DNA from: Hyphomicrobiales bacterium
GTDB lineage: Bacteria; Pseudomonadota; Alphaproteobacteria; Rhizobiales; Xanthobacteraceae
Reading direction: 5' to 3'
DNA: 64,000 bases
NCBI GenBank assembly: GCA_016185205.1
Contig: JACPOA010000031.1
Location: forward strand, 124,001-188,000
Shown: in pieces, positions 29,787 through 48,949 of the stretch
Layout of the letters: each line of letters opens with the position of its first letter
Numbering within the stretch: the first letter of the stretch is position 1
Made by a program: the position numbers and the translations under genes
The notes under the pieces: generated by a model
The model's database searches: none
Told to the model about the DNA's origin: nothing
The model's input: only the letters and a program-made list of their open reading frames with translations

Positions 29787-30584
29787 TCAGAGTTTCGGCG
29801 CCACGTCCAGCCGCACAATCCAGTTCTCCATGCCGGGCTGGGCCGCCGGGTAGAGCTTCAGCACCTCCGGATCGTGCCCCGGCACGATGTGCTGGCGCGA
29901 GCTCGCCAGCTTCTGGATCGTCTTATAGCCCTCGAGCGTGTCGCCGACGGAATAGGTGATCGGGAACACGCGGCCTTCGTCGATATGCGAGTACAGATGG
30001 ATGCAGTCGGATGACAGCACCACGACGCCGCGCTGGGTCTTGACCCGCACGCATTGCAGGCCCTTGGAGTGGCCGCCGATCTTGTGCACGCTGACGCCGG
30101 GCGCCAGTTCCTCGGCACCGTCGTGGAATTCGCAACGATAGGCAAACACCTTGCTCACCATGGCGTGCACGTCGCGCTCGCTGAACGGAATGCGCAGCGT
30201 TGGGTGGCACATGCAGCGGCCGGTGGCGTAAGCCATCTCGGTGTCCTGCAGATGATAACGCGCCTTGGGGAACAGTTCGTAATTGCCGGCGTGATCCCAA
30301 TGCATGTGGGTGGCGATCACGTTCTCGACCGTGTCGGGCTCGATCCCGAGCGCCTTCATCCCCTCGTCGACTGGATGCAACAGCTTGCGCCCGCGCTCCT
30401 TGGCGGCGACCTCGTCGAAGCCGGTATCGACGACGAAAACGCCGTGCGGGCCCTTAATCACCCAGACGTAATAGGAAATCGAGGTCAGCTCGTCGTGCGG
30501 ATCGCCGAAGATATAATTCTCCGAGCGCATCCGCGAATGGCTGGCGTAGCAGACGGCATAGACCTCGTGGATGTCGTCGCTCAT
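29787..30584 (-). CDS. Metallo-beta-lactamase-fold hydrolase, N-acyl-homoserine lactonase family
   Basis: A 265-residue cytosolic protein with the two-metal site THMHWDHAGN (His-x-His-x-Asp-His), GGHSKGLQ, SSDCIHLY and a final PGHDPEV. The fold and motif spacing match the AHL-lactonase/pyridoxolactonase group rather than glyoxalase II. Its start overlaps the upstream dehydrogenase stop (ATGA), making it the last gene of the long minus-strand catabolic block, so a lactone intermediate of that pathway is a more likely substrate than a quorum signal (inference). Confidence 0.88.
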   Translation of the reverse strand: MSDDIHEVYAVCYASHSRMRSENYIFGDPHDELTSISYYVWVIKGPHGVFVVDTGFDEVAAKERGRKLLHPVDEGMKALGIEPDTVENVIATHMHWDHAGNYELFPKARYHLQDTEMAYATGRCMCHPTLRIPFSERDVHAMVSKVFAYRCEFHDGAEELAPGVSVHKIGGHSKGLQCVRVKTQRGVVVLSSDCIHLYSHIDEGRVFPITYSVGDTLEGYKTIQKLASSRQHIVPGHDPEVLKLYPAAQPGMENWIVRLDVAPKL

Positions 30585-31471
30585 GGCTTCTTCCCCACGA
30601 TGACGCCGGCGCGGCGCTCGATCATCTTGACGATGACGGTGAAATCCGAGTCGCCGCCGAATTCCGTATTGGTCAGCTCCCATTGATCGAGCACGGCGCT
30701 CATCACATGATTGGGAACATCCAGCGCCCTGGCTTCCTCGGCGCACAGCCGCACGTCCTTAAGCATCAGCGCGGTGGCAAAGCCGTAGTTGAACGTGCGT
30801 GGCAGCACCGCCTGCGGAAATTTTCCGTCGGAGGCGGTGGTGCGGCCGGAGCCGGCATTGATCACGTCGATCATCGCAGCCGGATCGAGCCCGGCCTTGA
30901 CGCCCATCGCGACCGCTTCCGAGGTCGCCGCCATGGCGGTGGCGGAGAGGAAATTATTGGCGAGCTTCATGGTCTGCGCCATGCCGGGCTTGTCGCCGAT
31001 GATGAAGACCTTGCCGAACACGGCGAGCGCATCCTTCACCACGTCGATATCGGCCTTTGGCCCTGAGACCATCACTGCCAGCGTGCCCTTCTTGGCGCCG
31101 CCGACGCCGCCGCTCACCGGCGAATCGATCTGCACGATGTTCTTCTTGGCCAGCGCCGCGCAGATTTCCGCCGCCACGCGCGCGCCGGTGGTGGACAGAT
31201 CGACGAAGCGTTTCACGCGCTTGCCGTGGATGACGCCGCCTTCGCCGGTAGCGACCTTCATGGAGATCTGCAGCGACGGCAGACTCGCCATCACGGTCTC
31301 GACCCGGTCGGCGACATCCTGCGGCGACGAGGCCAGCTTGGCTCCGAGCGCCACCAGCGGCGCCACCGCGTCGTTGCGCGTGTCGTAGACGACGAGCTTG
31401 TGGCCGGCCTCGATCAGCCGGCGCGCCATCGGCTGCCCCATATTGCCCAGTCCGATAAAGCCGATGTCCAT
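30581..31471 (-). CDS. NAD(P)-dependent beta-hydroxyacid dehydrogenase (3-hydroxyisobutyrate dehydrogenase-like)
   Basis: A 296-residue protein. Rossmann domain starts IGFIGLGNMGQPMARRLIEAG; catalytic-region motifs DSPVSGGVGGAKKGTLAVMVSG and the conserved lysine in KLANNFLSATAMAATSEA. The C-terminal helical domain is normal. Members oxidise 3-hydroxyisobutyrate, tartronate semialdehyde or related beta-hydroxyacids. Start ATG at 31471 (MDIGFIG). It follows the CaiB gene by 28 bases and overlaps the lactonase gene. Confidence 0.9.
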   Translation of the reverse strand: MDIGFIGLGNMGQPMARRLIEAGHKLVVYDTRNDAVAPLVALGAKLASSPQDVADRVETVMASLPSLQISMKVATGEGGVIHGKRVKRFVDLSTTGARVAAEICAALAKKNIVQIDSPVSGGVGGAKKGTLAVMVSGPKADIDVVKDALAVFGKVFIIGDKPGMAQTMKLANNFLSATAMAATSEAVAMGVKAGLDPAAMIDVINAGSGRTTASDGKFPQAVLPRTFNYGFATALMLKDVRLCAEEARALDVPNHVMSAVLDQWELTNTEFGGDSDFTVIVKMIERRAGVIVGKKP

Positions 31472-31499
31472 ATGTTTTCTCCCGGAAACGACTGTAACC

Positions 31500-32630
31500 T
31501 TATGCCGGCTTGCCGCCGAATTCCTTGCGCACCATGTCGCTATGCTGGCCGAGCGCCGGCACCGCGCCAAACTTGCGCGGCACGCCGTCATGGATCGCCG
31601 ACGGCGCCGGCATGCTGGCCGGGCCGGTTGGGGTATCGACGCTGATGCGCCGCAAATGTGGATGCCGGGCCAGCAAATTCAGATCGTTGATGACGCCGAA
31701 GGCGATATCGTAGCGTGCGAGCTTGTCCACCAGCGGCTCGACATCCATGGACGCAAACGCCGCGGCGACGCGGCCATCGGTCTCGGCCCGGCGCTTCACC
31801 CGCTCGACATTGGTAGCGAAGTTCGGATCTTCGGCGAGCGCCTTGTCGCCCATCACATGCTCGGCCAGGATGCGCCATTCGCGGTCGTTCTGGATCGAGA
31901 TCAGCACGTCGCCGCCGTCGCGCGTCTTGAAGGCGCCGTAGGGCGAGATCGAGGTGTGCGCCAGCCCGATGCGCTTCGGCGTATCGCCGCCCTCATGCTG
32001 CAGCAGCGGCACGGCCATCCAATCGACCATGGCATCGAACATCGAGATGGCGATGGCGGCGCCCTCGCCGCTACGGCCGCGCGCGATCAGCGCTTCCAGG
32101 ATGGCCTCATAGGCGTTCATGCCGGCGGCGATGTCGACCACCGAGACGCCGGCGCGCGCCGGCGCTTCCGGCCCGCCGGTGATCGAGGAGAGCCCCGATT
32201 CGGCCTGGATCAGCATGTCGTAGGCCTTGCGCTGGGCGTAAGGCCCGCTCTCGCCGTAACCGGAGATCGAGCAGCAGATCAGCCGCGGATAGGCTTGGCG
32301 CAGACGCGTGAATGCAAAGCCGAGCTTGGCCAGCGCGCCGGGCTTGAGGTTCTGCACGAACACGTCGGCCTTGCCGAGCATGGCCTCGAGCAGCGCCTTG
32401 TCGTCCGGTTTGGCCAGATCGAGCACCACCGACTGCTTGCCGCGGTTGAGCCAGACGAAATAGGCGCTCTCGCCATGCGCCAGCGCGTCGTAGCGGCGGG
32501 CGAAGTCGCCCTCCGGCCGCTCGACCTTGATCACGCGCGCGCCGGCATCGGCCAGCTTGCAGGTGCAATGCGGCGCCGCCACGGCTTGTTCGACGGAGAC
32601 GACGAGGAGGCCTTCGAGTGGCAACGGCAT
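31500..32630 (-). CDS. CaiB/BaiF family (class III) CoA-transferase
   Basis: A 376-residue protein. Characteristic N-terminus LPLEGLLVVSVEQAVAAPHCTCKLADAGARVIKVERPEGDFAR, LNRGKQSVVLDL, VQNLKPGALAKLG and the Asp nucleophile region of SISGYGESGPYAQRKAYDMLIQAESG. It activates a carboxylic acid by moving CoA from another thioester. It begins 1 base after the acyl-CoA dehydrogenase stop, so translation is coupled. The partner acid is unknown. Confidence 0.93.
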   Translation of the reverse strand: MPLPLEGLLVVSVEQAVAAPHCTCKLADAGARVIKVERPEGDFARRYDALAHGESAYFVWLNRGKQSVVLDLAKPDDKALLEAMLGKADVFVQNLKPGALAKLGFAFTRLRQAYPRLICCSISGYGESGPYAQRKAYDMLIQAESGLSSITGGPEAPARAGVSVVDIAAGMNAYEAILEALIARGRSGEGAAIAISMFDAMVDWMAVPLLQHEGGDTPKRIGLAHTSISPYGAFKTRDGGDVLISIQNDREWRILAEHVMGDKALAEDPNFATNVERVKRRAETDGRVAAAFASMDVEPLVDKLARYDIAFGVINDLNLLARHPHLRRISVDTPTGPASMPAPSAIHDGVPRKFGAVPALGQHSDMVRKEFGGKPA

Positions 32631-32631
32631 T

Positions 32632-33804
32632 TCAATACGACCGCGGCAGGCCGAGCACGTGCTCAGCCAGATACGACAGGATCATGTTGGTGGAGATCGG
32701 TGCCACCTGGTAGAGCCGAGTTTCGCGGAACTTGCGCTCGACGTCGTATTCCTCGGCGAAGCCGAAGCCGCCATGGGTCTGCACGCACATGTCGGCGGCA
32801 AACCACGAGGCGTCGGCGGCGAGCAGCTTGGCCATGTTCGCCTCTGGCCCGACGTCGCGGCCTTCTTCATATTTGCGCGCGGCCTCGCGCACCATCAGCT
32901 CGGCGGCGCGCATCTGCGCATAGGCGCGCGCGATCGGAAACTGCACGCCCTGGTTCTTGCCGATCGGCCGGCCGAACAGTTCGCGCTCCTTGGCATAGGC
33001 GCTGGCCTTTTCGATGAACCATTTGGTGTCGCCGATGCACTCGGCCGCGATCAGGATGCGCTCGGCGTTCATGCCGGCCAGGATGTAGCGGAAGCCCTGG
33101 CCCTCCTCGCCGATCAGGTTCTCGGCCGGCACGCGCAGGTCGTCGAAGAACACCTGCGTGGTGGCATGGTTCATCATGGTGCGGATCGGGCTAATGGTCA
33201 TGCTGGTGCCCTGCGCCAGCCGCATGTCGACCAGGAACACCGACAGCCCGTCGGTGCGTTTCTTGGTCTTCTCTTTGGGCTCGGTGCGCGCCAGCAGCAG
33301 CATCAGGTCGGAATGCTGGGCGCGCGAGGTCCAAAGTTTCTGACCGTTGATGACGTAGTGATCGTTGCCCTCGCGCCGCGCCGTGGTGCGCAAGGACAGC
33401 GTGTCGGTGCCTGACGTCGGTTCGGTTACGCCGAAGACCTGCAGCCGCAATTCGCCGCTGGCGATCTTGGGCAAATATTGCTGCTTCTGCTCGGCATTGC
33501 CGTGCCGAAGAATCGTTCCCATCGTGTACATCTGCGCGTGGCAGGCCGCACCATTGCAGCCGGCGGCGTGGATTTCCTCCAGGATGGCGGCGGCGGCGCT
33601 GATGCTCAGCCCGCTGCCGCCAAACTCTTCCGGGATCAGCGCGGCGAGATAGCCGGCTTGCGTGAGCGCGGTGACAAATTCGGTCGGATAGGCGCGCTCG
33701 CGGTCGAGCGCGCGCCAGTAGTCGCCGGGAAACTTGGCGCAGAGCGCGCGCACGCTCGCGCGGATGTCGGAATATTCGTCGGGTTCGGTGCTGCGTTTGG
33801 TCAT
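32632..33804 (-). CDS. Acyl-CoA dehydrogenase
   Basis: A 390-residue FAD flavoenzyme introducing an alpha-beta double bond into an acyl-CoA. Motifs: YLAALIPEEFGGSGLSIS, VFGVTEPTSGTDTLSLRTTA (FAD/substrate region), GQKLWTSRAQHSDLMLLL, RYILAGMNAERILIAAECIGD and QTHGGFGFAEEYDVERKFR at the C-terminus with the flavin-contact Gly-Gly. The start overlaps the MaoC stop (ATGA). Chain-length preference cannot be inferred. Confidence 0.94.
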   Translation of the reverse strand: MTKRSTEPDEYSDIRASVRALCAKFPGDYWRALDRERAYPTEFVTALTQAGYLAALIPEEFGGSGLSISAAAAILEEIHAAGCNGAACHAQMYTMGTILRHGNAEQKQQYLPKIASGELRLQVFGVTEPTSGTDTLSLRTTARREGNDHYVINGQKLWTSRAQHSDLMLLLARTEPKEKTKKRTDGLSVFLVDMRLAQGTSMTISPIRTMMNHATTQVFFDDLRVPAENLIGEEGQGFRYILAGMNAERILIAAECIGDTKWFIEKASAYAKERELFGRPIGKNQGVQFPIARAYAQMRAAELMVREAARKYEEGRDVGPEANMAKLLAADASWFAADMCVQTHGGFGFAEEYDVERKFRETRLYQVAPISTNMILSYLAEHVLGLPRSY

Positions 33805-34685
33805 GACGGTTTCACTTCGGCGCGGCCATTGTTGATGGCGATGACATCGCGCTCAATAGCACAGGCCCGAAAGCTTACCACTCCACCATCGCGCCAGATT
33901 TCGGTCCTTATGGTCTCGCCCGGGAATACCGGCGCCGAGAACCGCCCGGCCATCGTGGTCAGGCGCGCCGGGTCGTAACCGCAGACCGCCTTGAGCAGCG
34001 CATGGCCGGCAATGCCAAAGGTCGCAAGGCCGTGCAGGATTGGGCGCGGGAACCCGGCGGCTAAAGCAAATTCCGGGTCGGCATGCAGCGGATTGACGTC
34101 GCCGGACAGCCGGTAAATCAGCGCCATTTCCGGCCGGGTCGGCATGTCGCAGACAAGATCGGGCGCGCGTTGCGGCAGCGCGTGCGGCGGCATGTCGCGC
34201 CTGGTCGCGTCCTTTGTCCCTTCCTTGGGCCCACCAAAGCCGCCGTCGCCGCGGCAAAATGTCGTTTGCGTCAAGGTCGCCAATAGATCGCCGGTTGCTT
34301 TGTCGCTGATCTCGCGCACGGAATAGATCAGCGCACCCTTGTCCTCGCCCTTGTCCACCACATCCACGATCCGGATACGTCCGACCACCACGCCTTGCGG
34401 CGCGATCGGGCGGTGCAGCACGACGCCGGCTTCGCCGTGGACGACCTTGCTCCAGGTAATGCCGAGACTGGGCTCGCGCAGCCAATAGGCCGAGTAGGCC
34501 AGCATGAACGCGTAGGTCGGCAGCACCTTCAGGTTCTTCTCATAGACGAAGGCGAGTTCATCGGCGTTGAGCGGGTCCTGGCCAAGCCCGAGGCCGAGCG
34601 CATAAAGCATGCAATCCTTCGGGCCGTAGCTTTGCTCGACGGCAGGGATTTCTAGCGCCAGCAATTTTTTGTAGTCGAGCGGCAT
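33801..34685 (-). CDS. MaoC family (R)-specific enoyl-CoA hydratase, type 2 (double hot-dog)
   Basis: A 294-residue protein with two hot-dog folds. The C-terminal half carries the hydratase-2 signature IYRLSGDVNPLHADPEFALAAG (catalytic Asp and His) followed by PILHGLATFGIAGHALL. The N-terminal half (YALGLGLGQDPL, FMLAYSAYWL, HRPIAPQGVVVGRIRIVDVVDKG) is the substrate-binding hot-dog. It should hydrate the enoyl-CoA made by the coupled acyl-CoA dehydrogenase. Start MPLDYKKLL at 34685, 19 bases after the adjacent MetE-like gene. Confidence 0.93.
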   Translation of the reverse strand: MPLDYKKLLALEIPAVEQSYGPKDCMLYALGLGLGQDPLNADELAFVYEKNLKVLPTYAFMLAYSAYWLREPSLGITWSKVVHGEAGVVLHRPIAPQGVVVGRIRIVDVVDKGEDKGALIYSVREISDKATGDLLATLTQTTFCRGDGGFGGPKEGTKDATRRDMPPHALPQRAPDLVCDMPTRPEMALIYRLSGDVNPLHADPEFALAAGFPRPILHGLATFGIAGHALLKAVCGYDPARLTTMAGRFSAPVFPGETIRTEIWRDGGVVSFRACAIERDVIAINNGRAEVKPS

Positions 34686-34704: not shown

Positions 34705-35808
34705 TCAGCCCCAAACTTCGTTCGCGATTTCAACGATCATGCGCAACTTCGCCCATTGCTCGTCCTCGGCCAGCACGTTGCCTTCCTCGGTGGAGGCGAA
34801 GCCGCATTGCGGCGACAGACAAAGCTGGTCCAGCGGCACGAACTTGGCGGCCTGCTCGATGCGGCGCTTGATCTCGTCCTTCGATTCCAGCCGTCCGCTT
34901 TTCGAGGTGACCAGGCCGAGCACCACCGTCTTGTCCTTCGGCAGCAGCCGCAGCGGCTCGAAGCCGCCGGCGCGGTCGCTGTCGTATTCCATGAAGAAGC
35001 CGTGCACCTTGATCTTGTCGAACAGGATTTCCTGCACCGCCTCGTAGCCGCCGGCACCCATGTAAGTCGATTTGTAGTTGCCGCGGCACATATGCATGGT
35101 GATGGTCATGTCGGATGGAATATCCGACATCGCGGTGTTGATCAGATCGGCATAGAGCGCGCCGAGCCGTTCCGGATCGTCGCCGCGGTCTTTCATCTGC
35201 TGGCGATATTTCGGATCGCACAGCATGGCGATGAACACCTCGTCGAGCTGCAGATAGCGGCAGCCGGCATCGGCGAAACCGCGCACCGCTTTTTTATAGG
35301 CCTGGCCGAGATCGACGAAGAAGGCGTCCATGCGCGGATAGATTTTCTGATCGATCGGCGTGCGCATCGGCCGCCCGTAAATCGCCGAGGGCGCCGGAAT
35401 GGTGATCTTGGGCGTGCGCTTGGTGTGCGCGGCGACGAATTTGAAATGCTCGATCATCGGATGCTTGGCGGAGCCGAGCTTGCCGGTGACCTTGACGCCC
35501 TCATTGCGCGTGGTCACCGCGGCGAAGGCGACGCCGGTGTCCATCACGTGCTTCTCGACGCCGTCGAGACCCCAAAGGAAATCGAGATGCCACCAGGAAC
35601 GGCGGAATTCGCCGTCGGTGATCGATTGCAGGCCGGCCTCCTCCTGCTTCTTGATAACGCGCTCGATCTCGCGGTCTTCCACCGCCTTGAGCGCGGCGGC
35701 GTCGATCTCAGCCCTAGCGCGCCGCTCGCGCGCCTGCTTCAGGGCGGCAGGACGCAACAGGCTGCCGACATGATCGGCGCGAAACGGCGGCTTGGTTCGC
35801 ATACTCAT
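34705..35808 (-). CDS. MetE-C-terminal-like zinc methyl/alkyltransferase, paralogue 1
   Basis: 367 residues of the cobalamin-independent methionine synthase C-terminal family (Meth_synt_2), lacking the N-terminal MetE half. Begins MRTKPPFRADHVGSLLRP. Zinc-site residues are kept: His239-x-Cys241 in MHMCRGN, Glu274 in MEYDSDRAGG and Cys335 in SPQCGFASTEEGN; YLQLDEV supplies the substrate-side acid. The family includes methionine synthases and epoxyalkane:CoM transferase; the real substrates here are unknown. The start overlaps the stop of paralogue 2 (ATGA). One of four tandem paralogues; grouped with paralogue 2 by the Asp-Glu motif. Confidence 0.9.
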   Translation of the reverse strand: MSMRTKPPFRADHVGSLLRPAALKQARERRARAEIDAAALKAVEDREIERVIKKQEEAGLQSITDGEFRRSWWHLDFLWGLDGVEKHVMDTGVAFAAVTTRNEGVKVTGKLGSAKHPMIEHFKFVAAHTKRTPKITIPAPSAIYGRPMRTPIDQKIYPRMDAFFVDLGQAYKKAVRGFADAGCRYLQLDEVFIAMLCDPKYRQQMKDRGDDPERLGALYADLINTAMSDIPSDMTITMHMCRGNYKSTYMGAGGYEAVQEILFDKIKVHGFFMEYDSDRAGGFEPLRLLPKDKTVVLGLVTSKSGRLESKDEIKRRIEQAAKFVPLDQLCLSPQCGFASTEEGNVLAEDEQWAKLRMIVEIANEVWG

Positions 35809-36917
35809 GACGCTACCCCCCACACTTCCTCGGCCACTTCCACGATCGTCCTGAGCTTCGCCCATTGCTCGTCCTCGGCCAGGATATTGCCTTCCTCGGT
35901 GGAGGCGAAGCCGCATTGCGGCGACAGACACAGGTGCTCCAGCGGCACGAACTTGGCCGCCTGTTCGATGCGGCGCTTGAGCTCGTCCCTGGATTCCAGC
36001 CGTCCCGACTTCGAGGTCACCAGACCCAGTACCACGGTCTTGCCCTTGGGAACGAACCGCAGCGGCTCGAAGCCGCCGGCGCGGTCGCTGTCGTATTCCA
36101 TGAAGTAGCCATGGACATTGATGGTGTTGAACAGGATTTCCGCCACCGGCTCGTAGCCACCCGAGGCCACGAAGGTGGACTGGAAATTGCCGCGGCACAG
36201 ATGCATGGCGGTGGTCATGTCGGGCGGAATATCCGAGATCGCCGCGTTGATCATGCCGGCATAGATCGCGGGCAGTTGTTCGGGATCGTCGCCGCGGTTG
36301 GCGACCTGCGCGCGCAGCTTGGAATCGCACAGATAGGTGAAATTAACCTCGTCGAGTTGCAGATAGCGGCAGCCTTGATCGGCGAAACCGCGCACGGCTT
36401 TGCGGTAGGTCTGCCCGAGATCGCGGTAGAAATCGGCCATGTCCGGATAGATCGTCTCCGGCACGGCGTCGCGCCCGTAGCGGAAATGCAAGCTTGACGG
36501 CGACGGGATCGTCATCTTCGGCATAACGCGCGTGTGCGCTTTGACGAATTTGAAATGCTCGAGCATCGGGTGGCCGGAAAACGTGCCGAGCGGGCCTACG
36601 ACGCGCAGCATCATCGGCTTCGGGTTCGGTCCCTGGAACTTGATCTTGCGCTCGCCGAGATAGGCTTCCACGCCGTCTAGGCTCCCAAGGAAATCGTAGT
36701 TCCAGAAAGCGCGACGGAATTCGCCGTCGGTGACCGCGCGCAAGCCGATGTCTTCCTGTCGCTTGATGATCTTGACGATCTCGTCGTCTTCGATCGCCTT
36801 CAGCTCTTCCGCGCCAATGTCACCCCGTTCGCGCCGAGCGCGCGCCTGTTTCAGCGGGCCTGAGCGCAACAGGCTGCCGACATGATCGGCGCGGAACGGC
36901 GGCTTGGTGCGTTTCAT
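35805..36917 (-). CDS. MetE-C-terminal-like zinc methyl/alkyltransferase, paralogue 2
   Basis: 370 residues of the same family as its three neighbours. Begins MKRTKPPFRADHVGSLLRSG. Zinc ligands His239-x-Cys241 (MHLCRGN), the Glu of MEYDSDRAGG and the Cys of SPQCGFAS are present, and YLQLDEVNF carries the Asp-Glu pair. It differs from the others in the substrate region (RYGRDAVPETIYPDM). ATG at 36917 aligns with the sister proteins; a GTG at 36932 would add five residues. A terminator-like hairpin and palindromic repeat lie just upstream, so it may have its own promoter. Confidence 0.9.
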   Translation of the reverse strand: MKRTKPPFRADHVGSLLRSGPLKQARARRERGDIGAEELKAIEDDEIVKIIKRQEDIGLRAVTDGEFRRAFWNYDFLGSLDGVEAYLGERKIKFQGPNPKPMMLRVVGPLGTFSGHPMLEHFKFVKAHTRVMPKMTIPSPSSLHFRYGRDAVPETIYPDMADFYRDLGQTYRKAVRGFADQGCRYLQLDEVNFTYLCDSKLRAQVANRGDDPEQLPAIYAGMINAAISDIPPDMTTAMHLCRGNFQSTFVASGGYEPVAEILFNTINVHGYFMEYDSDRAGGFEPLRFVPKGKTVVLGLVTSKSGRLESRDELKRRIEQAAKFVPLEHLCLSPQCGFASTEEGNILAEDEQWAKLRTIVEVAEEVWGVAS

Positions 36918-36939
36918 GGTGTGAATCGGCACTTGCTTT

Positions 36940-36973
36940 CTTATCCCTCCCCCGCAAGCGGGGGAGGGATAAG
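36940..36973. repeat. Perfect 16-base-arm palindrome (CTTATCCCTCCCC family)
   Basis: CTTATCCCTCCCCCGC (36940-36955), loop AA, and its exact complement at 36958-36973. It lies between the substrate-binding protein gene and MetE-like paralogue 2. Related to the elements at 23770 and 62616. Confidence 0.8.
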
Positions 36974-36977
36974 GAAA

Positions 36978-37004
36978 CGGCCGGCGCCTGTGGGACGCCG
37001 GCCG
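36978..37004 (-). terminator. Probable terminator after the substrate-binding protein gene
   Basis: CGGCCGGCG (36978-36986) pairs with CGCCGGCCG (36996-37004), 35 bases after the minus-strand stop at 37039. A strong GC stem without a clear T-run. It could lower read-through into paralogue 2. Confidence 0.5.
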
Positions 37005-37038
37005 CTGATATTGCCGCGAAATGGGCGAACGCCAAGTT

Positions 37039-38322
37039 TTATTTCACGAGCGCCTTTTCGTACGGGTAGATCACATCGCCGGTCTTGAACTGCGGCGGAT
37101 AGACGATCACCTCGGTCTTCAGATCGCGGAAGTCTTCGACGGTATTGCCCTTGATGTTCTGGAACTGGGCCGCCATCGTACGCTCCACCGCCCACTCGCC
37201 CTGCTTGCCGAATTTCACGTCGCCGACCACGGTCTTGAACGTGGTCTTGCGGATGTAGTCGGCGAGAACGTCGTCATTCAGGCTCTTGGTGGCGGCGATG
37301 GCGTCGCCGAGCACCTGCACATAGGCATAGGCCCAGACCGGCATATAATAGCCGAGCGGATCGACGCCCTCGGCGCCCGCGCGCGCCTGGTACTTCTTCA
37401 AGAGCTCGAGCGAACCCGGAAATGCCATCGACTTGACCGGTATCCAGGTTTCGAAATTGACCAGACCGTTGAGCATTGGTCCGAGCTGGGTCTTGAACAC
37501 GGTCGCCTGCAGGCCGACCATGGCGCCACCCCACATCTTCGGCTTGAAGCCGACTTCGTGCATGGCCTTGACCATGCCGACGGAGTCGAGCGGATAGGAG
37601 CAGATCACCAGCAGATCCGGATTCAAGGCCTGGATCGCGCGCACGATCGGGGAGAAGTCGGTGGTCGATGGCGGATAGGTCTTATTGTAGACGATCTTGA
37701 AGCCGGAATCCTTGGCATTCTCCGCCGCGCCCTCGCAGGCGTTGCGGCCGAATTCGGCGTCCGCCATCGCGATCGCGATGGTCTGCGGCTTGGGCTTCTG
37801 CACCTCGGCCACCTTGAAGAAGCCGCGCGTGAAGGCCGGCTTCGGTGTCGGGCCGTTCGGGATCATCGAGAAATATCTTGAATAGTTGAAGGTCTCGTTG
37901 ATGCCGGTGCCGAACAGGCTGACGAACAGCTTCTTCCTCTGGATCGCGATCGGCATCGCCGGCCCGATCTGGCCGGAGGCATAGCCGCTGACGATCAGAT
38001 CGACTTTGTCGATATCGAGCAGCTTGGTGTAGATGCCGGGCACCTGCGACGGGTTGCTCTGGTCGTCGAAGTAGACCAGCTTGACCGGACGGCCGAGCAG
38101 CCCGCCTTTGGCATTGACGTCGTCTTCCCAGATCTTCATCGCTAGCAACGACGACTTGCCGTTGGCCGACAGCGGGCCGGTCAGCGACATGCCAAAGCCG
38201 ATCTTGATGGGCTCTTTGGCCGGTGCTTGGGCTTTGGCCGGCACCGTAGTGAACAGCAGCGCGGCGGCGGCGACCGACAGCGCCAGACGGCTTATACTAA
38301 GCCATTGCGATCTCGTAGACAT
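37039..38322 (-). CDS. ABC transporter substrate-binding protein (branched-chain amino acid/aromatic type), orphan
   Basis: A 427-residue periplasmic protein. The signal peptide ends near residue 32 (LFTTVPAKAQA). Type I periplasmic-binding fold (Peripla_BP_6) with IKIGFGMSLTGPLSANGK, GGLLGRPVKLVYFDDQSNPSQ, VDLIVSGYASGQIGPAM and LVICSYPLDSVGMVKAM. No permease or ATPase gene adjoins, so it must use a shared transporter or act as a sensor. Strong GGGAGGGAAGGAA ribosome-binding site. It lies between two pairs of MetE-like genes, suggesting that it captures their substrate. Confidence 0.92.
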   Translation of the reverse strand: MSTRSQWLSISRLALSVAAAALLFTTVPAKAQAPAKEPIKIGFGMSLTGPLSANGKSSLLAMKIWEDDVNAKGGLLGRPVKLVYFDDQSNPSQVPGIYTKLLDIDKVDLIVSGYASGQIGPAMPIAIQRKKLFVSLFGTGINETFNYSRYFSMIPNGPTPKPAFTRGFFKVAEVQKPKPQTIAIAMADAEFGRNACEGAAENAKDSGFKIVYNKTYPPSTTDFSPIVRAIQALNPDLLVICSYPLDSVGMVKAMHEVGFKPKMWGGAMVGLQATVFKTQLGPMLNGLVNFETWIPVKSMAFPGSLELLKKYQARAGAEGVDPLGYYMPVWAYAYVQVLGDAIAATKSLNDDVLADYIRKTTFKTVVGDVKFGKQGEWAVERTMAAQFQNIKGNTVEDFRDLKTEVIVYPPQFKTGDVIYPYEKALVK

Positions 38323-38434
38323 TTCCTTCCCTCCCGGTTGAACCCAGAATACCGCGTCAGTGACTTGAGCCTGATCGACGGTATCCCTCGTGGACGATGC
38401 TAGACGGCCGGCGGCCGCCCCAACTTGCGAAAAA

Positions 38435-39547
38435 TCAATTCCGGCCCCAGACTTCGTCGGCCAACTCGACGATCATTTTCAGCTTAGCCCATTGCTCCTC
38501 CTCGGCCAGCACATTGCCTTCCTCGGTGGAGGCGAAGCCGCATTGCGGCGACAGGCACAGCTGGTCGAGCGCGACATATTTGGTGGCCTCGTCGATGCGG
38601 CGCTTGATGTCGTCGCGCGGCTCCAGCCGCCCGCTCTTACTGGTGACGAGGCCGAGCACCAGCTGCTTCTTGCCCTTGGGGAAGAAGCGCAGCGGCTCGA
38701 AACCGCCGGCACGCTTGCTGTCGTATTCCAGGAAATAGCCGTTGAGATTGGTGTCGTTGAACATCACCTCGGCCACCGGCTCGTAACCGCCCTCGGCGAT
38801 CCAGGTGGAGCGGAAATTGCCGCGGCAGGAATGCATGGTAACGACCATATCGGCCGGCTTGCCTTCCAGCGCCATGTTGATCATGCGCGCGTAAATTTTC
38901 GGCAATTTGTCTGGATCGTCGCCGCGCGCGCGCGATTGCGCCCGCTCGTTGGCGTCGCACATCATCGCCCAGGTCGTGTCGTCGAGTTGCAGATAACGGC
39001 AGCCGGCGGCGGCGAAGGCCTGCACCGCATCGCGGTAGGCACGTCCGAGGTCGTCGAAGAAGGCATCGAGGTCGGGATAAACCTGTTTGCTGACCGAGAC
39101 GCGGCCTTGCCGGAAATGCAGCACGCCGGGCGCCGGGATCGTCATCTTCGGCACGACGCGGCAATGCTGTTGCAAGAATTTAAAATGTTCGATGTGCGGG
39201 TGCCCGGCTAAGCCGATTTTGCCCACGGTGCGCACGCTTTCGGCCTTGGTATCGACGCCGTGAAACTTGATGCCTTTGTCGGTGAAATAGAATTCGATCC
39301 CTTTCAGCGAGCGGAAGAAATCGAAATGCCACCAGGAGCGGCGGAATTCGCCGTCGGTGGCGAGCTTGAGGCCGACCTCCTCCTGCTTCTTGATGATCTT
39401 TTCGATCTCGCGGTCTTCCACCGCCTTCAGCGCGTCGGCGGAAATTTCTTCCTTGGCGAATTGCGCGCGCGCCTGTTTCAGCGGTGCCGTGCGCAGCAGG
39501 CTGCCGACCATATCGGCGCGGAAGGGCGGCAGGTTGCGTTGCGTCAC
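38435..39547 (-). CDS. MetE-C-terminal-like zinc methyl/alkyltransferase, paralogue 3
   Basis: 370 residues. Begins MTQRNLPPFRADMVGSLLRT. Zinc set kept: His239-x-Cys241 (MHSCRGN), the Glu of LEYDSKRAGG and the Cys of SPQCGFAS. The acid motif is YLQLDDTTW (Asp-Asp), shared with paralogue 4 and different from 1 and 2. The GTG start overlaps the stop of paralogue 4 (GTGA), so translation is coupled. A longer open frame extends upstream, but this start aligns with all sister proteins. Confidence 0.9.
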   Translation of the reverse strand: MTQRNLPPFRADMVGSLLRTAPLKQARAQFAKEEISADALKAVEDREIEKIIKKQEEVGLKLATDGEFRRSWWHFDFFRSLKGIEFYFTDKGIKFHGVDTKAESVRTVGKIGLAGHPHIEHFKFLQQHCRVVPKMTIPAPGVLHFRQGRVSVSKQVYPDLDAFFDDLGRAYRDAVQAFAAAGCRYLQLDDTTWAMMCDANERAQSRARGDDPDKLPKIYARMINMALEGKPADMVVTMHSCRGNFRSTWIAEGGYEPVAEVMFNDTNLNGYFLEYDSKRAGGFEPLRFFPKGKKQLVLGLVTSKSGRLEPRDDIKRRIDEATKYVALDQLCLSPQCGFASTEEGNVLAEEEQWAKLKMIVELADEVWGRN

Positions 39548-40653
39548 TTGCCCCACACCTCTTCCGCTACCTCGACGATCATGCGCAGCTTGGCCCATTG
39601 CTCGTCCTCGGCCAGCACATTGCCTTCCTCGGTGGAGGCGAAGCCGCATTGCGGCGACAGACAGAGCTGGTCGAGCGCGACATATTTGGTCGCCTCCTCG
39701 ATGCGCTTCTTGATGTCGGCGCGCGGCTCCAGCCTGCCTGATTTGGACGTCACCACGCCGAGCACGACGATCTTGTTGCCCTTCGGCAGAAAGCGCAGCG
39801 GCTCGAAACCGCCGGCGCGCTCTGAGTCGTATTCCAGGAAGTAGCCGTCGTAGTTGCACTTGGCCAGCAGGTTCTCGGCCACCGGCTCGTAGCCGCCGGA
39901 GGCAATCCAGGTCGAACGGAAATTGCCGCGACAGACATGGGTGGTGATGGTCATGTCGGCGGGCTTGGCCACCAACGCCTTGTTGATGCAGGCGGTGTAG
40001 GTGTCTTGCAGATGGTCGACGTCGAGGCCGCGGTCGCGCGCCTTCTTCAACTCCTCCTTGGAGCAGAGATAGGCCCAGGCGGTGTCGTCCCATTGCAGAT
40101 AGCGGCAGCCAGCGTCGTAGAAGGCGCGGATCGCTTTTTGGTAAGCCGCGGCGAGATCGTCGAAGATATCGTCGCGGCTCTTGTAGACCTGCGCATTGAC
40201 CGCGCCGGGCTCGAGCCGGAAATGCATCACGCTCGGCGCCGGGATCGTCATCTTCGGCACCGTCTTGGTGTGGCTTTTAAGGAATTTGAAATGCTCCAGC
40301 ATCGGGTGATTGGAGAAGCCGATCTTGCCGGTGACCTTGATGCTCTGCATCTTGGTCTGCACGCCCTGGAACTGGATGCCGTGGTCGAGCTCGTAGAGCT
40401 CGACGCCGTCCAGCATGCTGAAGAAATCGAAATGCCACCAGGCGCGGCGGAATTCGCCGTCGGTGGCGAGCCTGAGGCCGACCTCCTCCTGCTTCCTGAT
40501 GATCTTCTCGATCTCGCGGTCCTCGACCTCTTTGAGCTGAGTCGCGCTGATGGCGCCCTTCTCGCGTTGCGCGCGCGCCTGCTTGACCGACGCGGTGCGC
40601 AGAATGCTGCCGACATGATCGGCGCGGAATGGCGGCTTGGTTCGTTGCGTCAT
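39544..40653 (-). CDS. MetE-C-terminal-like zinc methyl/alkyltransferase, paralogue 4
   Basis: 369 residues. Begins MTQRTKPPFRADHVGSILRT. Zinc ligands His239-x-Cys241 (THVCRGN), Glu274 (LEYDSERAGG) and Cys336 (SPQCGFAS). The substrate-side motif is YLQWDDTAW, with Trp replacing the usual Leu. Paralogue 3 shares its Asp-Asp motif and WWHFDFF segment, so the two form one sub-pair. First of the four in transcription order; it starts 97 bases after the MetF-like gene, with a REP-like palindrome in between. Confidence 0.9.
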   Translation of the reverse strand: MTQRTKPPFRADHVGSILRTASVKQARAQREKGAISATQLKEVEDREIEKIIRKQEEVGLRLATDGEFRRAWWHFDFFSMLDGVELYELDHGIQFQGVQTKMQSIKVTGKIGFSNHPMLEHFKFLKSHTKTVPKMTIPAPSVMHFRLEPGAVNAQVYKSRDDIFDDLAAAYQKAIRAFYDAGCRYLQWDDTAWAYLCSKEELKKARDRGLDVDHLQDTYTACINKALVAKPADMTITTHVCRGNFRSTWIASGGYEPVAENLLAKCNYDGYFLEYDSERAGGFEPLRFLPKGNKIVVLGVVTSKSGRLEPRADIKKRIEEATKYVALDQLCLSPQCGFASTEEGNVLAEDEQWAKLRMIVEVAEEVWGK

Positions 40654-40709: not shown

Positions 40710-40758
40710 GCGCATGATCTCGTCCGAAATCCGGTATCCACTTTTCGGGATCATGCGC
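40710..40758. repeat. REP-like palindrome (GCGCATGATC...GATCATGCGC)
   Basis: Terminal arms GCGCATGATC (40710-40719) and GATCATGCGC (40749-40758), with inner TCCGAAATCCGG and CCACTTTTCGGG. The MetF-like gene's stop codon (TGA) is inside the right arm. Same family as 5438-5470 and 44680-44751. Confidence 0.8.
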
Positions 40759-41599
40759 TATTGGATTGAGCCATAGCATGGCTGACGGCAATGCGTCCTG
40801 CCGCCGCATCGCATGCGTAGCGGGCGGTCTGCAAGACCCCGCCGAAGGAAAAATAATGCGGGCTGGCCTCGCCAATTCCTGGGGCAACGTCCAGCGCGGC
40901 CAGAATAGCATCCGGCCCGACATTGCCGAGCAACCCGGCACCGGCGCCCGAGGCGAGGCCGCGCAACGAGGCATTCACGCCGCAGCGCTTGGCGTAACGC
41001 AACAGCGCGGTCAGGCTGGTCGGTCCAACCATGCCGACCTTCACCGGCACCGCGATGCCGCAGGCGCGCAGGCGCTTGAGCCAGGCGACCACCGCGTCGG
41101 GTGAAAATGAGAACTGGCTGACGATATGCACGCGCAAGCCGGCCGCGCGCGCCGTGGCGATCTTCTGGTCGAGCGCAGCTTCCATCCGGTCCGGCGGTAT
41201 GCGGGCATGGCCTTCCGGGTAGCCGGCGATGCCGATCTCCTCGATGCCGGCCTCGCGCAGCCGGCCTTTCTGGATGACCGCCAGCGCATCAGGGAAAGCG
41301 CCGGCCGTGTCGACGTCGCCGCCGATCACCAGCAGCCGTCTGACATCAGCCTCTGCGTGCAGCCTGGTCAGCAAGTCCTGCAAATCGGCAGCCGCAGGAA
41401 TGCGCCGCGCCGCGATATGCACGACCGGCTCCAGGCCGCCTTTGCGCAATAAGGCCGACCCGGCCACCAGCTCCTGCGCTGTGAGCGTCGGCACCGCGGA
41501 GAAATAGACAGGCGTGCCGCGCGGCAGTATGTCGGCCAGCGCGGCGATCTCGGCCGCGCTCGGCCGCGTGGCTTCCAGCGAAAAATCTGCCGACAACAT
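40751..41599 (-). CDS. Methylenetetrahydrofolate reductase-like protein
   Basis: A 282-residue TIM-barrel protein resembling MetF. It keeps candidates for the three catalytic positions: Glu9 in DFSLEATRP, the Asp in VIGGDVDTAG and the Gln in VSQFSFSPDA. The rest diverges from housekeeping MetF (PVYFSAVPTL, HIAARRIPAAADLQ). MetF reduces methylene-THF to methyl-THF; run in reverse, such an enzyme could oxidise methyl-THF in catabolism. The ATG at 41599 is 2 bases after the upstream methyltransferase stop. Context with four MetE-like enzymes suggests a one-carbon role. Confidence 0.8.
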   Translation of the reverse strand: MLSADFSLEATRPSAAEIAALADILPRGTPVYFSAVPTLTAQELVAGSALLRKGGLEPVVHIAARRIPAAADLQDLLTRLHAEADVRRLLVIGGDVDTAGAFPDALAVIQKGRLREAGIEEIGIAGYPEGHARIPPDRMEAALDQKIATARAAGLRVHIVSQFSFSPDAVVAWLKRLRACGIAVPVKVGMVGPTSLTALLRYAKRCGVNASLRGLASGAGAGLLGNVGPDAILAALDVAPGIGEASPHYFSFGGVLQTARYACDAAAGRIAVSHAMAQSNSA

Positions 41600-41601
41600 G
41601 C

Positions 41602-43011
41602 TCACTCCCGCCGATGGGAGATCACGAAGGACTCGTCGTAGAACCACAGGCCGCCGTGCTGCTGCAGCACCGCGCGCGTCGCCTCGATATAGCGGCGGTC
41701 GCTATGCACGTCCGACAGCCGGTCGTCCTCGATCTGCGCAACATAGACCGCCGCATTCCAGGCGGCCAGCAGCGTGGAGGTGCCGATCGAGGCGGAAACT
41801 TCCGACGGCAGCGTGTGCATGTCGTAGCGGAACAGCGAACGCTGATCGGAATAGGTGTTGAAGTTGAGATCGCGGCCGGCCGGCCCCAGCTCCTGCTTCA
41901 CCGCCTTGAGCAGGTCGTGGCGGCTGTGCACGAACGGATGATCGTTCGGCCAGACTTTGTGGATGATCTCCATGCCGGGATCGTGGCCGTAGGAATGCAT
42001 CGCGATCATGCGGCCGCCGGAACCGAGCGCGCGGGCGAGCGGCGCCAGCACGCGCTTGGCCTTGAACTCGAGCGAGGCGCGGGCGCGATAGGGCTGCGAG
42101 GCGATGACCAGATCGTAGTCGGCGACGGTGCCGCCCGGCTTGGGCACGATCTGGTCGAGCAGGAAGCGGTGGTCGGCGCGGTAGATCACCAGGATGACCG
42201 GGCGCTCATAGACCGGGTTGCCGCTCTTGGGCGAGACGCGCGCCTTCCAGTTCTCGGCCAGGAACGGCTCCAGCGCGGTGATCTGCTGCTCGAAGCTGTG
42301 GCCGGTGTTGCCCTCCATCGGCAGCTCTTTCCACACCAGGCTGGCAGCGGCGCTGAGCGACTTCACCGCCAGCCAGGGCGCCTCGGCATAAGCGAGATTG
42401 GTGAGCACCAGCACCGTGGAGGGATGCTCGATGAAGCGGTCCGCCATCTTGTGCAGCGTGAGACGGATATCCTCGACGCTGATCTCCTTGCCGACGATAT
42501 AGAACGGCATGGTTGGGAAACGGTCGTGCATCGTGCGCATCACGCGCGCCAGCACGGTGCCGTCGCCGACGCCGGCATCGAACACGCGCACCGCCGGCGG
42601 ACGCGGATGGATATTGGCGAGCTCGAGCCCGACGCGTTGCGCGGTTTCCCACTTCTCGCTGCAGGTATTCACGAACAGCAGATATTTCTGCCGGTTGTCG
42701 AAGAAGCGGAAATTGCGCTGCGGATCGTCGCTGGCCTGGCCGGAGGCGACCGGCGGCGCCGGCGGCGTCAACACCGGCAACGCCGGCGGCGGCGGCGCGT
42801 CGAACAGCACGCGGCGTCGCCCCGGCGCGGCATCGGCGTTGCGCGCCATGAAGGCGCGGATGCGTTCCAGCGTGTCGGTGGTGATACGGCCGCCATTGCG
42901 CAGGCGGCTGGCCAGCTTGCCGTCGTTGACGGCGCGGCGGCCGAAGGTGGATTCGGCCAAGCCGCGCTGACGGCAGAATTCGCCGATTTCCTGAAGGATA
43001 ATCTCGTTCAT
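41602..43011 (-). CDS. HTH-SAM methyltransferase fusion protein
   Basis: 469 residues. Residues about 1-50 form a lambda-repressor-like helix-turn-helix seen in alphaproteobacteria (EFCRQRGLAESTFGRRAV, NDGKLASRLRNGGRITTDTLERI). A Pro/Ala-rich linker (about 65-95) leads to a class I methyltransferase fold with VRVFDAGVGDGTVLARV as SAM motif I, VLVLTNLAYAEAPW and DYDLVIASQPYRARASLEFKAKRVLAPLARALGSGGRMIAMHSYG. It could be a regulator with a methyltransferase sensor or enzyme domain. It opens the minus-strand block. Substrate unknown. Confidence 0.8.
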   Translation of the reverse strand: MNEIILQEIGEFCRQRGLAESTFGRRAVNDGKLASRLRNGGRITTDTLERIRAFMARNADAAPGRRRVLFDAPPPPALPVLTPPAPPVASGQASDDPQRNFRFFDNRQKYLLFVNTCSEKWETAQRVGLELANIHPRPPAVRVFDAGVGDGTVLARVMRTMHDRFPTMPFYIVGKEISVEDIRLTLHKMADRFIEHPSTVLVLTNLAYAEAPWLAVKSLSAAASLVWKELPMEGNTGHSFEQQITALEPFLAENWKARVSPKSGNPVYERPVILVIYRADHRFLLDQIVPKPGGTVADYDLVIASQPYRARASLEFKAKRVLAPLARALGSGGRMIAMHSYGHDPGMEIIHKVWPNDHPFVHSRHDLLKAVKQELGPAGRDLNFNTYSDQRSLFRYDMHTLPSEVSASIGTSTLLAAWNAAVYVAQIEDDRLSDVHSDRRYIEATRAVLQQHGGLWFYDESFVISHRRE

Positions 43012-43305: not shown

Positions 43306-43923
43306 CTAGATGTCGAAGAAAACCGTCTCGTTTTCGCCCTGGACGCGGATATCGAAGCGGTAGACCGCGATCTCCCCGCGCATCTCCTTGTGGGCAATGA
43401 GCGTGCCGCGGCGGTCGGCCGGCACCAGCGTCAGGATGGGATCCGCGCTGTTGGCCGCCTCGTCGGCGAAATAGATGCGGGTGTAGATCTGCCGCAGCAT
43501 GCCGCGCGAGAAGATGCAGACCACGATATGCGGCGACTGCGGCTTGCCGTCGGGGCCGGGCACCACGCCCGGTTTGACGGTGTCGAAGCTGTAGACCCCC
43601 GCCTTATCGGTGGCGGTGCGGCCGAAGCCCTTGAACTTGGCGTTCGGCCGCGCACCGCGGTTGTCGCGCGGATGCGCGTAGCGCCCTTGTCCGTCGGCTT
43701 GCCAGATCTCGATCATGGCGTCGTTGATCGGCAGCCCGTCGCCGTCGAGGATGCTACCCTCGATGCGGATGCGGGTGCCGGTGGCGTCCGGCGTCACCAG
43801 ATCGGCGCCGACGGTTTCCTTCCAGTCGTAGCCCGAGTTCGGCTTCCAGTCGCAGCGGCTGTGCGGCGCCAGGCCATAAGCGAAGAACGGGCCGACGGTT
43901 TGTGAGGGCGTGATGTCAGACAT
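43306..43923 (-). CDS. pcaG: Protocatechuate 3,4-dioxygenase alpha subunit
   Basis: Structural partner of PcaH in the intradiol cleavage of protocatechuate to 3-carboxy-cis,cis-muconate. 205 residues: TPSQTVGPFFAYGL at the N-terminus, the IEGSILDGDGLPINDAMIEIWQADGQGRY beta-sandwich segment, FGRTATDKAGVYSFDTVKPG and PHIVVCIFSRGMLRQIYTRIYF. As usual for the alpha chain, the iron ligands of PcaH are not conserved. Its ATG overlaps the pcaH stop by one base (TAATG). Genes for the next steps (pcaB, pcaC, pcaD) are not in the window. Confidence 0.96.
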   Translation of the reverse strand: MSDITPSQTVGPFFAYGLAPHSRCDWKPNSGYDWKETVGADLVTPDATGTRIRIEGSILDGDGLPINDAMIEIWQADGQGRYAHPRDNRGARPNAKFKGFGRTATDKAGVYSFDTVKPGVVPGPDGKPQSPHIVVCIFSRGMLRQIYTRIYFADEAANSADPILTLVPADRRGTLIAHKEMRGEIAVYRFDIRVQGENETVFFDI

Positions 43924-44630
43924 TAATGTTGTTCCGTATGTACCGGGGTCTGTTCGCGACCGCGCAGCACGATATCGAAGCGGAAGCAGAGCGCCCAATC
44001 GGGAACCGTGTTCTCCAGATCGAAGCTGGAGACCATGCGCAGGCGGGCCTTCTCGTCGGCGACCGAATTGAAGATCGGGTCGAACGGGAACAGCGGGTCG
44101 CCGGGAAAATACATCTGCGTCACCAGCCGAGACACGAACGACTGGCCGAACACTGAGAAGTGGATGTGATTGGGGCGCCAGGCATTGCGGTGATTGCCCC
44201 AGGGATAGGCGCCGGGCTTCACCGTGATGAAGCGGTAATAACCCTTCTTGTCGGTGACGGTGCGCCCCGCGCCGGTGAAGTTCGGATCGAGCGGGGCCGG
44301 ATGCTGGTCGACATTGTGCACGTAGCGGCCGCAGGCATTGGCCTGCCAGATTTCCACCAGCGAATCGACGACCGGGCGCTTGTCCTCGTCATAGACGTGG
44401 CCGTGCACGATGATGCGCTCGCCGAGCGGCTCGCCCTTGTGCTGCTTGGTGAGATCGGCATCGCCCTCCTGCACCGCGTCGTGGCCGTAGACCGGGCCGG
44501 TGAGCTCCGACAGCGTGTGCGGCACAATGATCAGCGGCTTTCCCGGCGAGCGCTTGACCGTGCTTTTGTATTCCGGCGACAGATGCTTGGGATAAACGCT
44601 GAGGCTTTCCCTGGGATAAATGAACGTCAT
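43923..44630 (-). CDS. pcaH: Protocatechuate 3,4-dioxygenase beta subunit
   Basis: Iron-containing catalytic subunit of the ring-cleaving dioxygenase. 235 residues. The Fe(III) ligands are at the classical spacing: Tyr103 (CGRYVH), Tyr142 (GAYPW), His155 and His157 (RPNHIHFSVFG). The intradiol-dioxygenase core includes ERIIVHGHVYDEDKRPV and LVEIWQANACGRY. ATG at 44630 (MTFIYPRES) chosen; it is preceded by AGGG. Transcribed ahead of pcaG and after the thiolase, with a REP-like palindrome in between. Confidence 0.97.
   Translation of the reverse strand: MTFIYPRESLSVYPKHLSPEYKSTVKRSPGKPLIIVPHTLSELTGPVYGHDAVQEGDADLTKQHKGEPLGERIIVHGHVYDEDKRPVVDSLVEIWQANACGRYVHNVDQHPAPLDPNFTGAGRTVTDKKGYYRFITVKPGAYPWGNHRNAWRPNHIHFSVFGQSFVSRLVTQMYFPGDPLFPFDPIFNSVADEKARLRMVSSFDLENTVPDWALCFRFDIVLRGREQTPVHTEQH

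Positions 44631-44750: not shown

Positions 44751-44751
<1 letters not shown>
44680..44751. repeat. REP-like palindrome at the pcaF stop
   Basis: Arms GCGCATGATC (44680-44689) and GATCATGCGC (44742-44751), with inner TCCGAAAACCGG and a GATCAGGTCGAGG insert. The last base coincides with the pcaF stop codon TAG. The longest copy of the family in the window. Confidence 0.8.
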
Positions 44752-45961
<1,210 letters not shown>

Positions 45962-45962
<1 letters not shown>

Positions 45963-46744
45963 CACGCCGCCTCCGAATGTGCACGGTTGGTGCGCGCATG
46001 CAGCTCGCGCAGTACTTCGAGTTCGCGGGCCGTCGGCGGCGGCGTCTCCGCCACCTGGGCTGCAAATTTGACCGGCCAGCCGGTGTTGTCTTGCACCTGC
46101 TCGCGCGTCACGCCGGGATGCAGGGAGACGACCGTCATCTCCTTACTCTGCGCATCGGGCTCGAACAGCGCCAGATCGGTGATCAGCTTGGTCGGGCCCT
46201 TGGTCTTGACGCCGAGCCTGGCTCTACTGTCGCCGCCCGAGACATGGCCGATCGAGGTGACGAAATCGAGCCTGTCGACGAAGCTGCGCTTGCCCTGCGC
46301 CATGATGATGAAAATCTCGCCGCAGGAGGTGGCGATCTCGGGCGCGCCACCGCCGCCGGGCAGCCGCACCTTCGGCTTGTCGTAGGGGCCGACCACCGTC
46401 GTGTTGAGATTGGCGTATTTGTCGATCTGCGCGCCGCCCAGGAAGCCGACTTTGATGCGGCCGCCCTGCAGCCAGTAGCGGAACATCTCCGGCACCGGCA
46501 CGGTGGTGAGCGCGGTCTCGCACAGTTCGCCGTCGCCGATCGAGAGCGGCAGCACATTCGGTTTGGTGGCGAGCGTGCCGGATTCGTAGATCAGCACGAT
46601 GTCCGGCGCATGCGTGAGGCGGGCGAGGTTGGCCGCCGCCGAGGGCATGCCGATGCCGACGAAACAGACGTCGTCGTTCTTGAGTGCGCGCGCCGCCGCG
46701 ATCGTCATCATCTCGTTCGGCTTGTAGTCGACCATGATATTCAC
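45962..46744 (-). CDS. CoA-transferase beta subunit (CatJ-type 3-oxoadipate CoA-transferase)
   Basis: 260 residues of the glutaconate/CatJ-like class I CoA-transferases, longer than the about 215-residue SCOT-type PcaJ. Motifs: DDVCFVGIGMPSAAANLARL, IYESGTLATKP with the likely thioester-forming Glu, GFLGGAQIDKYANLNTTVVG and LPGGGGAPEIATSC. It should move CoA from succinyl-CoA to 3-oxoadipate with the alpha subunit. The GTG start at 46744 overlaps the alpha stop (GTGA); an ATG at 46735 is an alternative. Confidence 0.9.
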
Positions 46745-48826: not shown

Positions 48827-48886
48827 GAAGGTTCGCCTGGTTCGTTTCCGCTGCATTTCCTTAGCACAGCCAGCTTGACGTAGATT

Positions 48887-48901: not shown

Positions 48902-48949
48902 ATTCTCCCGCCAATCCATAAAACGTCCTGCTGCCTAGGGAGGACCTCC

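Follow-up and report, generated by a model that had tools for sequence, protein, structure and literature searches.

Four core-MetE-like zinc proteins of an aromatic-degradation island as candidate catabolic thiol methyltransferases

We analysed a window of 64,000 nucleotides from a Hyphomicrobiales bacterium (contig JACPOA010000031.1, positions 124,001 to 188,000), in which four paralogous genes of the core-MetE-like family PRK06520, here called p1 to p4, occupy positions 34705-40653 of the minus strand. We consider it an even call that their products would be catabolic thiol methyltransferases that use a non-folate donor and act on methoxylated aromatics, where activity, donor and acceptor are all predicted: the basis is the family, the zinc and homocysteine residues, the loss of a pterin ligand, the neighbourhood, and the linkage to LigM and to a methylenetetrahydrofolate reductase (MTHFR). 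More tentatively, the four may form a new class of aryl-ether O-demethylases that work without oxygen, cobalamin or a folate acceptor: a zinc-bound homocysteine thiolate would demethylate the methoxyaromatics of lignin to phenol and methionine, with p1 to p4 for different substrates. The reaction would possibly be ArOCH3 + homocysteine -> ArOH + methionine.

Aryl O-demethylation is indispensable to the bacterial use of lignin and often a key bottleneck in it, according to the abstract of PMC6021390; LigM/DesA, VanAB, DmtS and the P450s are the enzymes to which the portions of the literature consulted assign this step. The quartet may represent a so far undescribed route for the methyl groups of lignin-type aromatics. 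A full-text literature search, which covered titles, the starts of abstracts and passages and left subscription journals mostly outside, returned no paper tying PRK06520 to O-demethylation.

Family, active site and pairing of the quartet

The host is a draft genome of 4.38 Mb, and the loci closest to that of the window are in Pseudolabrys and other Xanthobacteraceae or Hyphomicrobiales assemblies. On the minus strand, the genes follow each other in the order p4 (39544..40653, 369 amino acids), p3 (38435..39547, 370 amino acids), a HAAT-type periplasmic binding protein (37039..38322, 427 amino acids, PF13458), p2 (35805..36917, 370 amino acids from its ATG, with an alternative upstream GTG start at 36932) and p1 (34705..35808, 367 amino acids). 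The 4-base overlaps described in the original prediction, GTGA between p4 and p3 and ATGA between p2 and p1, can both be read in the sequence, with the binding-protein gene between the two pairs.

Identity to p1 is 65% for p2, 61% for p3 and 60% for p4. All four proteins match PF01717, and all exceed the curated cut-off of 313 bits of the NCBIfam family NF005085 (PRK06520), with 519, 526, 595 and 610 bits; they score 34-46 bits with the canonical MetE family TIGR01371, whose cut-off is 930, and none of them matches the LigM-type family NF047885 in the NCBIfam scan. The nearest solved structure is 1ypx, from Listeria (508 bits). The quartet shares with the core-MetE family that NF005085 and 1ypx represent a full-length match and the zinc and homocysteine residues; the plasmid-borne members examined stand singly, whereas the window holds four ortholog groups in an aromatic-degradation island. 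The original prediction would have been contradicted by a place of all four within a well-characterised clade of known function; the family is a named one, for which we found no characterised activity.

The active site was compared over 257 distinct family proteins (269 alignment rows, 12 of them repeats). Among the zinc ligands, H239, C241 and E274 never vary (257/257), and the last, a cysteine at 335 or 336, is present in 256/257; the four paralogues, of about 370 residues each, do keep all their presumed ligands, as had been claimed. The residues expected to contact homocysteine are equally stable: S16 is found in 256/257, and E67 and D189 in 257/257. Their equivalents are S433, E484 and D599 in MetE of E. 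coli (a passage of PMC7857596) and S411, E462 and D577 in that of T. maritima (a passage of PMC539065). The same passages of PMC539065 describe the pterin ring of the Thermotoga enzyme as held by Glu583, six residues past the homocysteine-binding Asp577. This position is also Glu in the aligned MetE chains; in PRK06520 it is Tyr in 171 proteins, Met in 77, another residue in 8 and Glu in 1, and it is Glu in none of p1 to p4. The N-terminal half of the two-domain MetE is absent from the quartet proteins, and the folate site of that enzyme is the cleft between its halves (a passage of PMC7005905). Since the homocysteine and zinc residues are kept while the pterin Glu and the N-terminal half are lost, the quartet looks suited, and apparently built, to activate homocysteine but not to accept a methyl group from folate.

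Canonical MetE and the quartet thus have in common the catalytic barrel, the HxC...E...C zinc site and the Ser/Glu/Asp homocysteine site. They differ in size, about 750 residues in two domains against 367-370 residues without the N-terminal half, and at the pterin Glu, where almost all PRK06520 proteins have Tyr or Met. The core methionine synthases MesA-MesD, as presented in passages of PMC7857596, resemble the quartet in build: they are core-sized, lack the folate domain and have the zinc and homocysteine residues. MesD (3rpd), the sole one of these that was compared, scores 41 bits against 508 for 1ypx, and no corrinoid or DUF1852 protein was found among the 20 window proteins scanned.

The host genome has 12 PF01717 places, of which two share a reading frame, and 6 PRK06520 matches, so that the quartet belongs to a larger repertoire. 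One PF01717 protein of this genome (contig C25, L103) resembles, by eye, MesD of 3rpd. A further PF01717 subfamily, at 25-27% identity to p1-p4, lies near or among the PRK06520 genes in the blocks of four loci (L027, L076, L079 and L086), and a protein on contig C6 of the host (L102) is similar to it by eye.

A tree of 162 family proteins and three distant ones, computed by a quick method with SH-aLRT support only, places p1, p2, p3 and p4 in separate groups with support 100, 94, 98 and 99, the value for p2 being just under the 95 mark; the p1 and p2 groups are joined with support 80. Single-copy, transporter-linked genes of other genera and proteins of Klebsiella, Pantoea, Moraxella and Bacillota lie on the p3/p4 side, which holds more lineages outside the p3 and p4 groups themselves. 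The tree marks p1 to p4 as four old, separately kept ortholog groups. The acid motif follows them: LQLDE in p1 and p2 and LQLDD or LQWDD in p3 and p4, a difference already described, persists across the wider family, with D in 162/163 proteins of p3/p4 type and E in 90/94 of p1/p2 type, as assigned by best match.

The block of PRK06520 genes was located in 79 related loci, where the number of intact copies, cut contigs included, is 1 in 32 loci, 2 in 8, 3 in 17, 4 in 15 and 5 in 7. Overlaps were scored from automatically picked starts, with 15 broken or cut genes excluded from the pairs. Neighbouring p4>p3 pairs of other loci overlap by 4 bases in 0/30 cases, and are separated by more than 20 bases in 27; neighbouring p2>p1 pairs overlap by 4 bases in 4/26. 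In one excluded pair (L013), a 4-base overlap follows p4, and the second gene, cut by the end of the contig, has p2 as its best match. Two fixed, coupled pairs, which the original prediction took to be functional units, are rejected, since a locus may hold anything between 1 and 5 intact copies and the overlaps show no conservation.

The linkage to LigM and to an unusual MTHFR

The strongest clues to the function of the quartet are the MTHFR next to it and the link with LigM, neither of which figures in the original prediction. The MTHFR gene (40751..41647, minus strand, start uncertain) is divergent: its product scores only 34 bits with PF02219, while a profile search gives 305 bits for the Sphingobium SYK-6 enzyme 7xg9 against 53 bits for the next MTHFR, and ranks 1-3 of a Foldseek search are the SYK-6 enzyme and its complex with methyltetrahydrofolate (CH3-THF). 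A passage of PMC13001107 ascribes to this subfamily a preference for CH3-THF oxidation and co-evolution with LigM. On another contig of the host, MetH (1763 bits) and a canonical MetF (313 bits) are encoded close together. We reject housekeeping methionine synthesis as the main role of the quartet on this ground, as the original prediction had done in favour of catabolic methyl transfer.

One aminomethyltransferase cluster occurs at the block in 10/79 loci, and its directly tested member is LigM by the NCBIfam equivalog NF047885 (738 bits, cut-off 580). In a whole-genome search of 36 block-bearing genomes, mostly from loci with at least two copies, five further genomes pass this cut-off, always with LigM adjoining the block, and 31/36, in assemblies of unstated completeness, do not; five known LigM loci (L026, L029, L030, L032 and L038) were left out, so that this LigM-free share is overstated, and it becomes 31/41 when they are counted. 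One of the 31 (G556) has a weaker relative of 245 bits, and the host genome gives no NF047885 match.

A sample of 149 genomes of the family, which shares some genomes with the 79 loci (L038/G127 and L052/G091) and is thus not independent of them, gives a second count: LigM is above its cut-off in 13 genomes, and PRK06520 is present in 107. A PRK06520 gene lies 84-1294 bases from LigM in 11 of the 13, or at 11/17 LigM places among the matches listed, in 6 genera; p4-type genes are among those that adjoin LigM in relatives. The two genes are divergent in 10 of the 11 cases and convergent in 1. As for the two LigM genomes without such a neighbour, LigM is at a contig end in G004, and no PRK06520 place is listed on its contig in G109. 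Within the genus of the window, five LigM genomes carry 1-2 PRK06520 genes, and two LigM-free ones carry 6. At least 12 scored PRK06520 genes were counted in each of two genomes (G014 and G017; L164 and L157), some of them beside LigB, LigC and LigI. Present in 107/149 genomes, multiplied in aromatic islands, and found beside LigM and MTHFR, PRK06520 would be a concrete and assayable answer to the question of demethylation.

LigM and DesA, the tetrahydrofolate (THF)-dependent O-demethylases, share with the quartet a neighbourhood (SYK-6-type MTHFR, protocatechuate cleavage and, in some cases, purU) and a similar proposed job, but they are of the aminomethyltransferase type, another protein family. 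A parallel case is found on plasmid pLA3 of Novosphingobium pentaromativorans (L185, 8515-12421). A distant PF01717 gene, at 22-26% identity to p1-p4, lies there two genes from a facing LigM-type gene (55% to LigM), beyond which stand MTHFR, purU, ligA and ligB. In two genomes of one other family, a gene of the pLA3 type is also at the LigM locus: in L186 a single regulator gene separates the two, and in L187 the distance is about 4.5 kb. O-demethylation loci thus harbour members of two distant PF01717 subfamilies.

Proposed role and alternatives

We propose that p1 to p4, old and separately conserved members of PRK06520, were recruited into a catabolic island for methoxyaromatics of the lignin-monomer kind. 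Each paralogue would use its zinc to activate a thiol like that of homocysteine, which would take a methyl group, or possibly another alkyl group, from a non-folate donor; the donors would most likely be methoxylated aromatic or phenylpropanoid acids imported by HAAT transporters, with different paralogues serving different donors. The methyl group would then reach the neighbouring MTHFR through the folate pool. Homocysteine as the acceptor, a methoxyaromatic as the donor and this last route are what we infer. The link to methoxylated aromatics, already suggested in the original prediction, is borne out by the LigM, pca and LigAB neighbours. Its suggestion that the binding protein imports the substrate holds in part: HAAT genes do adjoin PRK06520 in relatives, but this binding protein is nearby in only 9/79 loci, and the scan of neighbouring genes gave no transporter to go with it.

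Several observations weigh against the proposal. All the links are by neighbourhood. The weak point is the path of the methyl group to the MTHFR: a homocysteine acceptor alone fails to explain a methyl-THF-oxidising enzyme next door, for bulk catabolism, passage through methionine and S-adenosylmethionine (SAM) would be an expensive route, and a direct transfer to THF is at odds with the missing pterin ligand. Outside the family, among 385 genomes of the class, LigM-type genes are found in 7 at E 1e-150, and a PRK06520 gene lies within 1.5 kb at 0/12 places. The 14 positions that separate p1 to p4 show no enrichment around the active site (hypergeometric p 0.27-0.70). Finally, some family members occur singly in other settings: the Klebsiella gene precedes urt-like transporter genes, the Rhodovulum plasmid genes (L094 and L095) have a metal ABC transporter and a regulator of the Fur family as neighbours, suggesting metal-supply control, and others are found on Bacillota plasmids.

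Other demethylases count on the same side. The profile VanA_C, of another kind of demethylase, takes in other Rieske oxygenases as well. It reaches 140 bits or more in 15/32 distinct LigM-free genomes, so that roughly half of them may have an alternative demethylase, and it matches at any strength (E 0.001) in 22/32; the 17 without a strong match include the host, which has only a partial match of 25 bits and in which P450-type demethylases were not searched for. The simple idea of PRK06520 as a plain replacement for LigM is not clean, given these strong matches and the coexistence of both genes in some genomes.

It is rather unlikely, in our view, that the quartet is an assimilatory sink, a set of auxiliary methionine synthases that would turn the methyl groups of O-demethylation, brought by CH3-THF or another carrier, into methionine. 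The intact homocysteine site and the very name of the family, methionine synthase, agree with such a role, and so do the metK-ahcY and luxS neighbours of relatives; the products of ahcY and luxS both lead to homocysteine. In eight stretches, one per genus, chosen from the best family matches, a single PRK06520 gene has adjoining HAAT transporter genes in 7/8, metK and ahcY near it in 6/8, and purU near it in 7/8 (names checked by model in L147). YxjH and YxjG are taken to be PRK06520 members. A passage of PMC6004538 describes, for Lactobacillus paracasei, a joint transcript of yxjH and luxS controlled by a methionine T-box. These neighbours count for our own proposal as well. However, the pterin-binding Glu is missing in 256/257 proteins, the N-terminal folate domain is absent, and a passage of PMC7005905 reports that methyl-THF-Glu3 gave no methionine with the core-MetE of Dehalococcoides. 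MetH and MetF are already present in the host, and the genomes with at least 12 scored copies, like the 31/36 without LigM, are a poor fit.

The HAAT link extends beyond these stretches, with an adjoining HAAT-type ATPase gene in 26/30 best-scoring family loci, a count made with two homologous ATPase queries that one gene may both answer. In Pantoea, the PRK06520 gene follows galB and other 4-oxalomesaconate genes, and that of Priestia filamentosa is followed by a gene whose annotation is aromatic-acid symporter.

Enzymes of PF01717 work by alkylation of a zinc thiolate, and they include epoxyalkane:coenzyme M transferase, a member of the superfamily whose zinc-activated thiol is coenzyme M in place of homocysteine. 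The quartet could likewise alkylate a thiol or cleave an ether on some larger alkyl or aryl ether, thioether or epoxide of lignin breakdown. CoA-dependent genes of phenylpropanoid type adjoin the block, and several paralogue groups are kept apart, as such a role would have it; the SYK-6-type MTHFR next door points instead to one-carbon units, and the homocysteine contacts are kept, which makes this alternative improbable.

We hold it to be quite improbable that folate itself is the acceptor, the aryl methyl group being passed straight to THF, as LigM does, to feed the MTHFR. Even where no LigM was found, the MTHFR stands next to the block, and purU lies near relatives, both of which would suit a direct transfer; but the pterin ligand is lost, and the conserved zinc-thiol site would be left without a role. 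That the PRK06520 genes are passengers without connected function, spread by duplication in islands, would account for their variable copy number and for unrelated neighbours at some loci, and is most improbable, given that the four ortholog groups persist across genera with their active sites intact and that adjacency to LigM recurs in 6 genera.

The island around the block

By its gene content, the block lies in a protocatechuate/CoA-pathway island for lignin-type aromatics, all of whose genes described here are on the minus strand. Upstream are, in order, the genes of a two-subunit CoA-transferase (45962..47658), with a pcaJ-like part at 45962-46744 (PF01144) and a pcaI-like part at 46741-47658 named from sequence and place; a thiolase (44751..45965, family scan), probably a beta-ketoadipyl-CoA thiolase from its place; the beta subunit of protocatechuate 3,4-dioxygenase, pcaH (43923..44627, PF00775 and PF12391); its second, pcaG-like subunit (43306..43926, PF00775); a conserved gene, orf470 (41602..43011); and the MTHFR. 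Downstream, family scans identify a MaoC-type hydratase (33801..34685), an acyl-CoA dehydrogenase (32632..33804), a family III CoA-transferase (31500..32630), a hydroxyacid dehydrogenase, more precisely a reductase like 3-hydroxyisobutyrate dehydrogenase (30581..31474), and a metallo-beta-lactamase-fold hydrolase (29787..30593), the starts of the last two being inferred. Over 94 clustered loci, window included, with counts lowered by cut contigs, the acyl-CoA dehydrogenase recurs in 40, protocatechuate dioxygenase in 35, the family III CoA-transferase in 34, orf470 in 32 and the MTHFR in 29.

The product of orf470 has, by eye, a helix-turn-helix-like N-terminus and a methyltransferase-like motif. 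It has no match in Pfam, NCBIfam or the PDB, and Foldseek returned nothing at E 0.001 or better for a weak model (mean pLDDT 62); we do not retain it as an identifiable enzyme. It could be a regulator that senses SAM or S-adenosylhomocysteine. Counterparts from other pca islands are 81-91% identical to it, and a copy that other genera have near metK-ahcY is 62-65% identical. Riboswitch control was also rejected: no Rfam family reaches its gathering threshold in the window or in the loci of 8 relatives, and the four matches of a permissive scan of 28000-52000 are weak, all below the gathering score of their family.

Beside the island, positions 48320-54115 of the window hold a MarR-type regulator, a second HAAT binding protein, an enoyl-CoA hydratase, an AMP-forming ligase, all from the family scan, and a thiolase-like frame recognised by eye, which together look like a set for the beta-oxidation of hydroxycinnamates.

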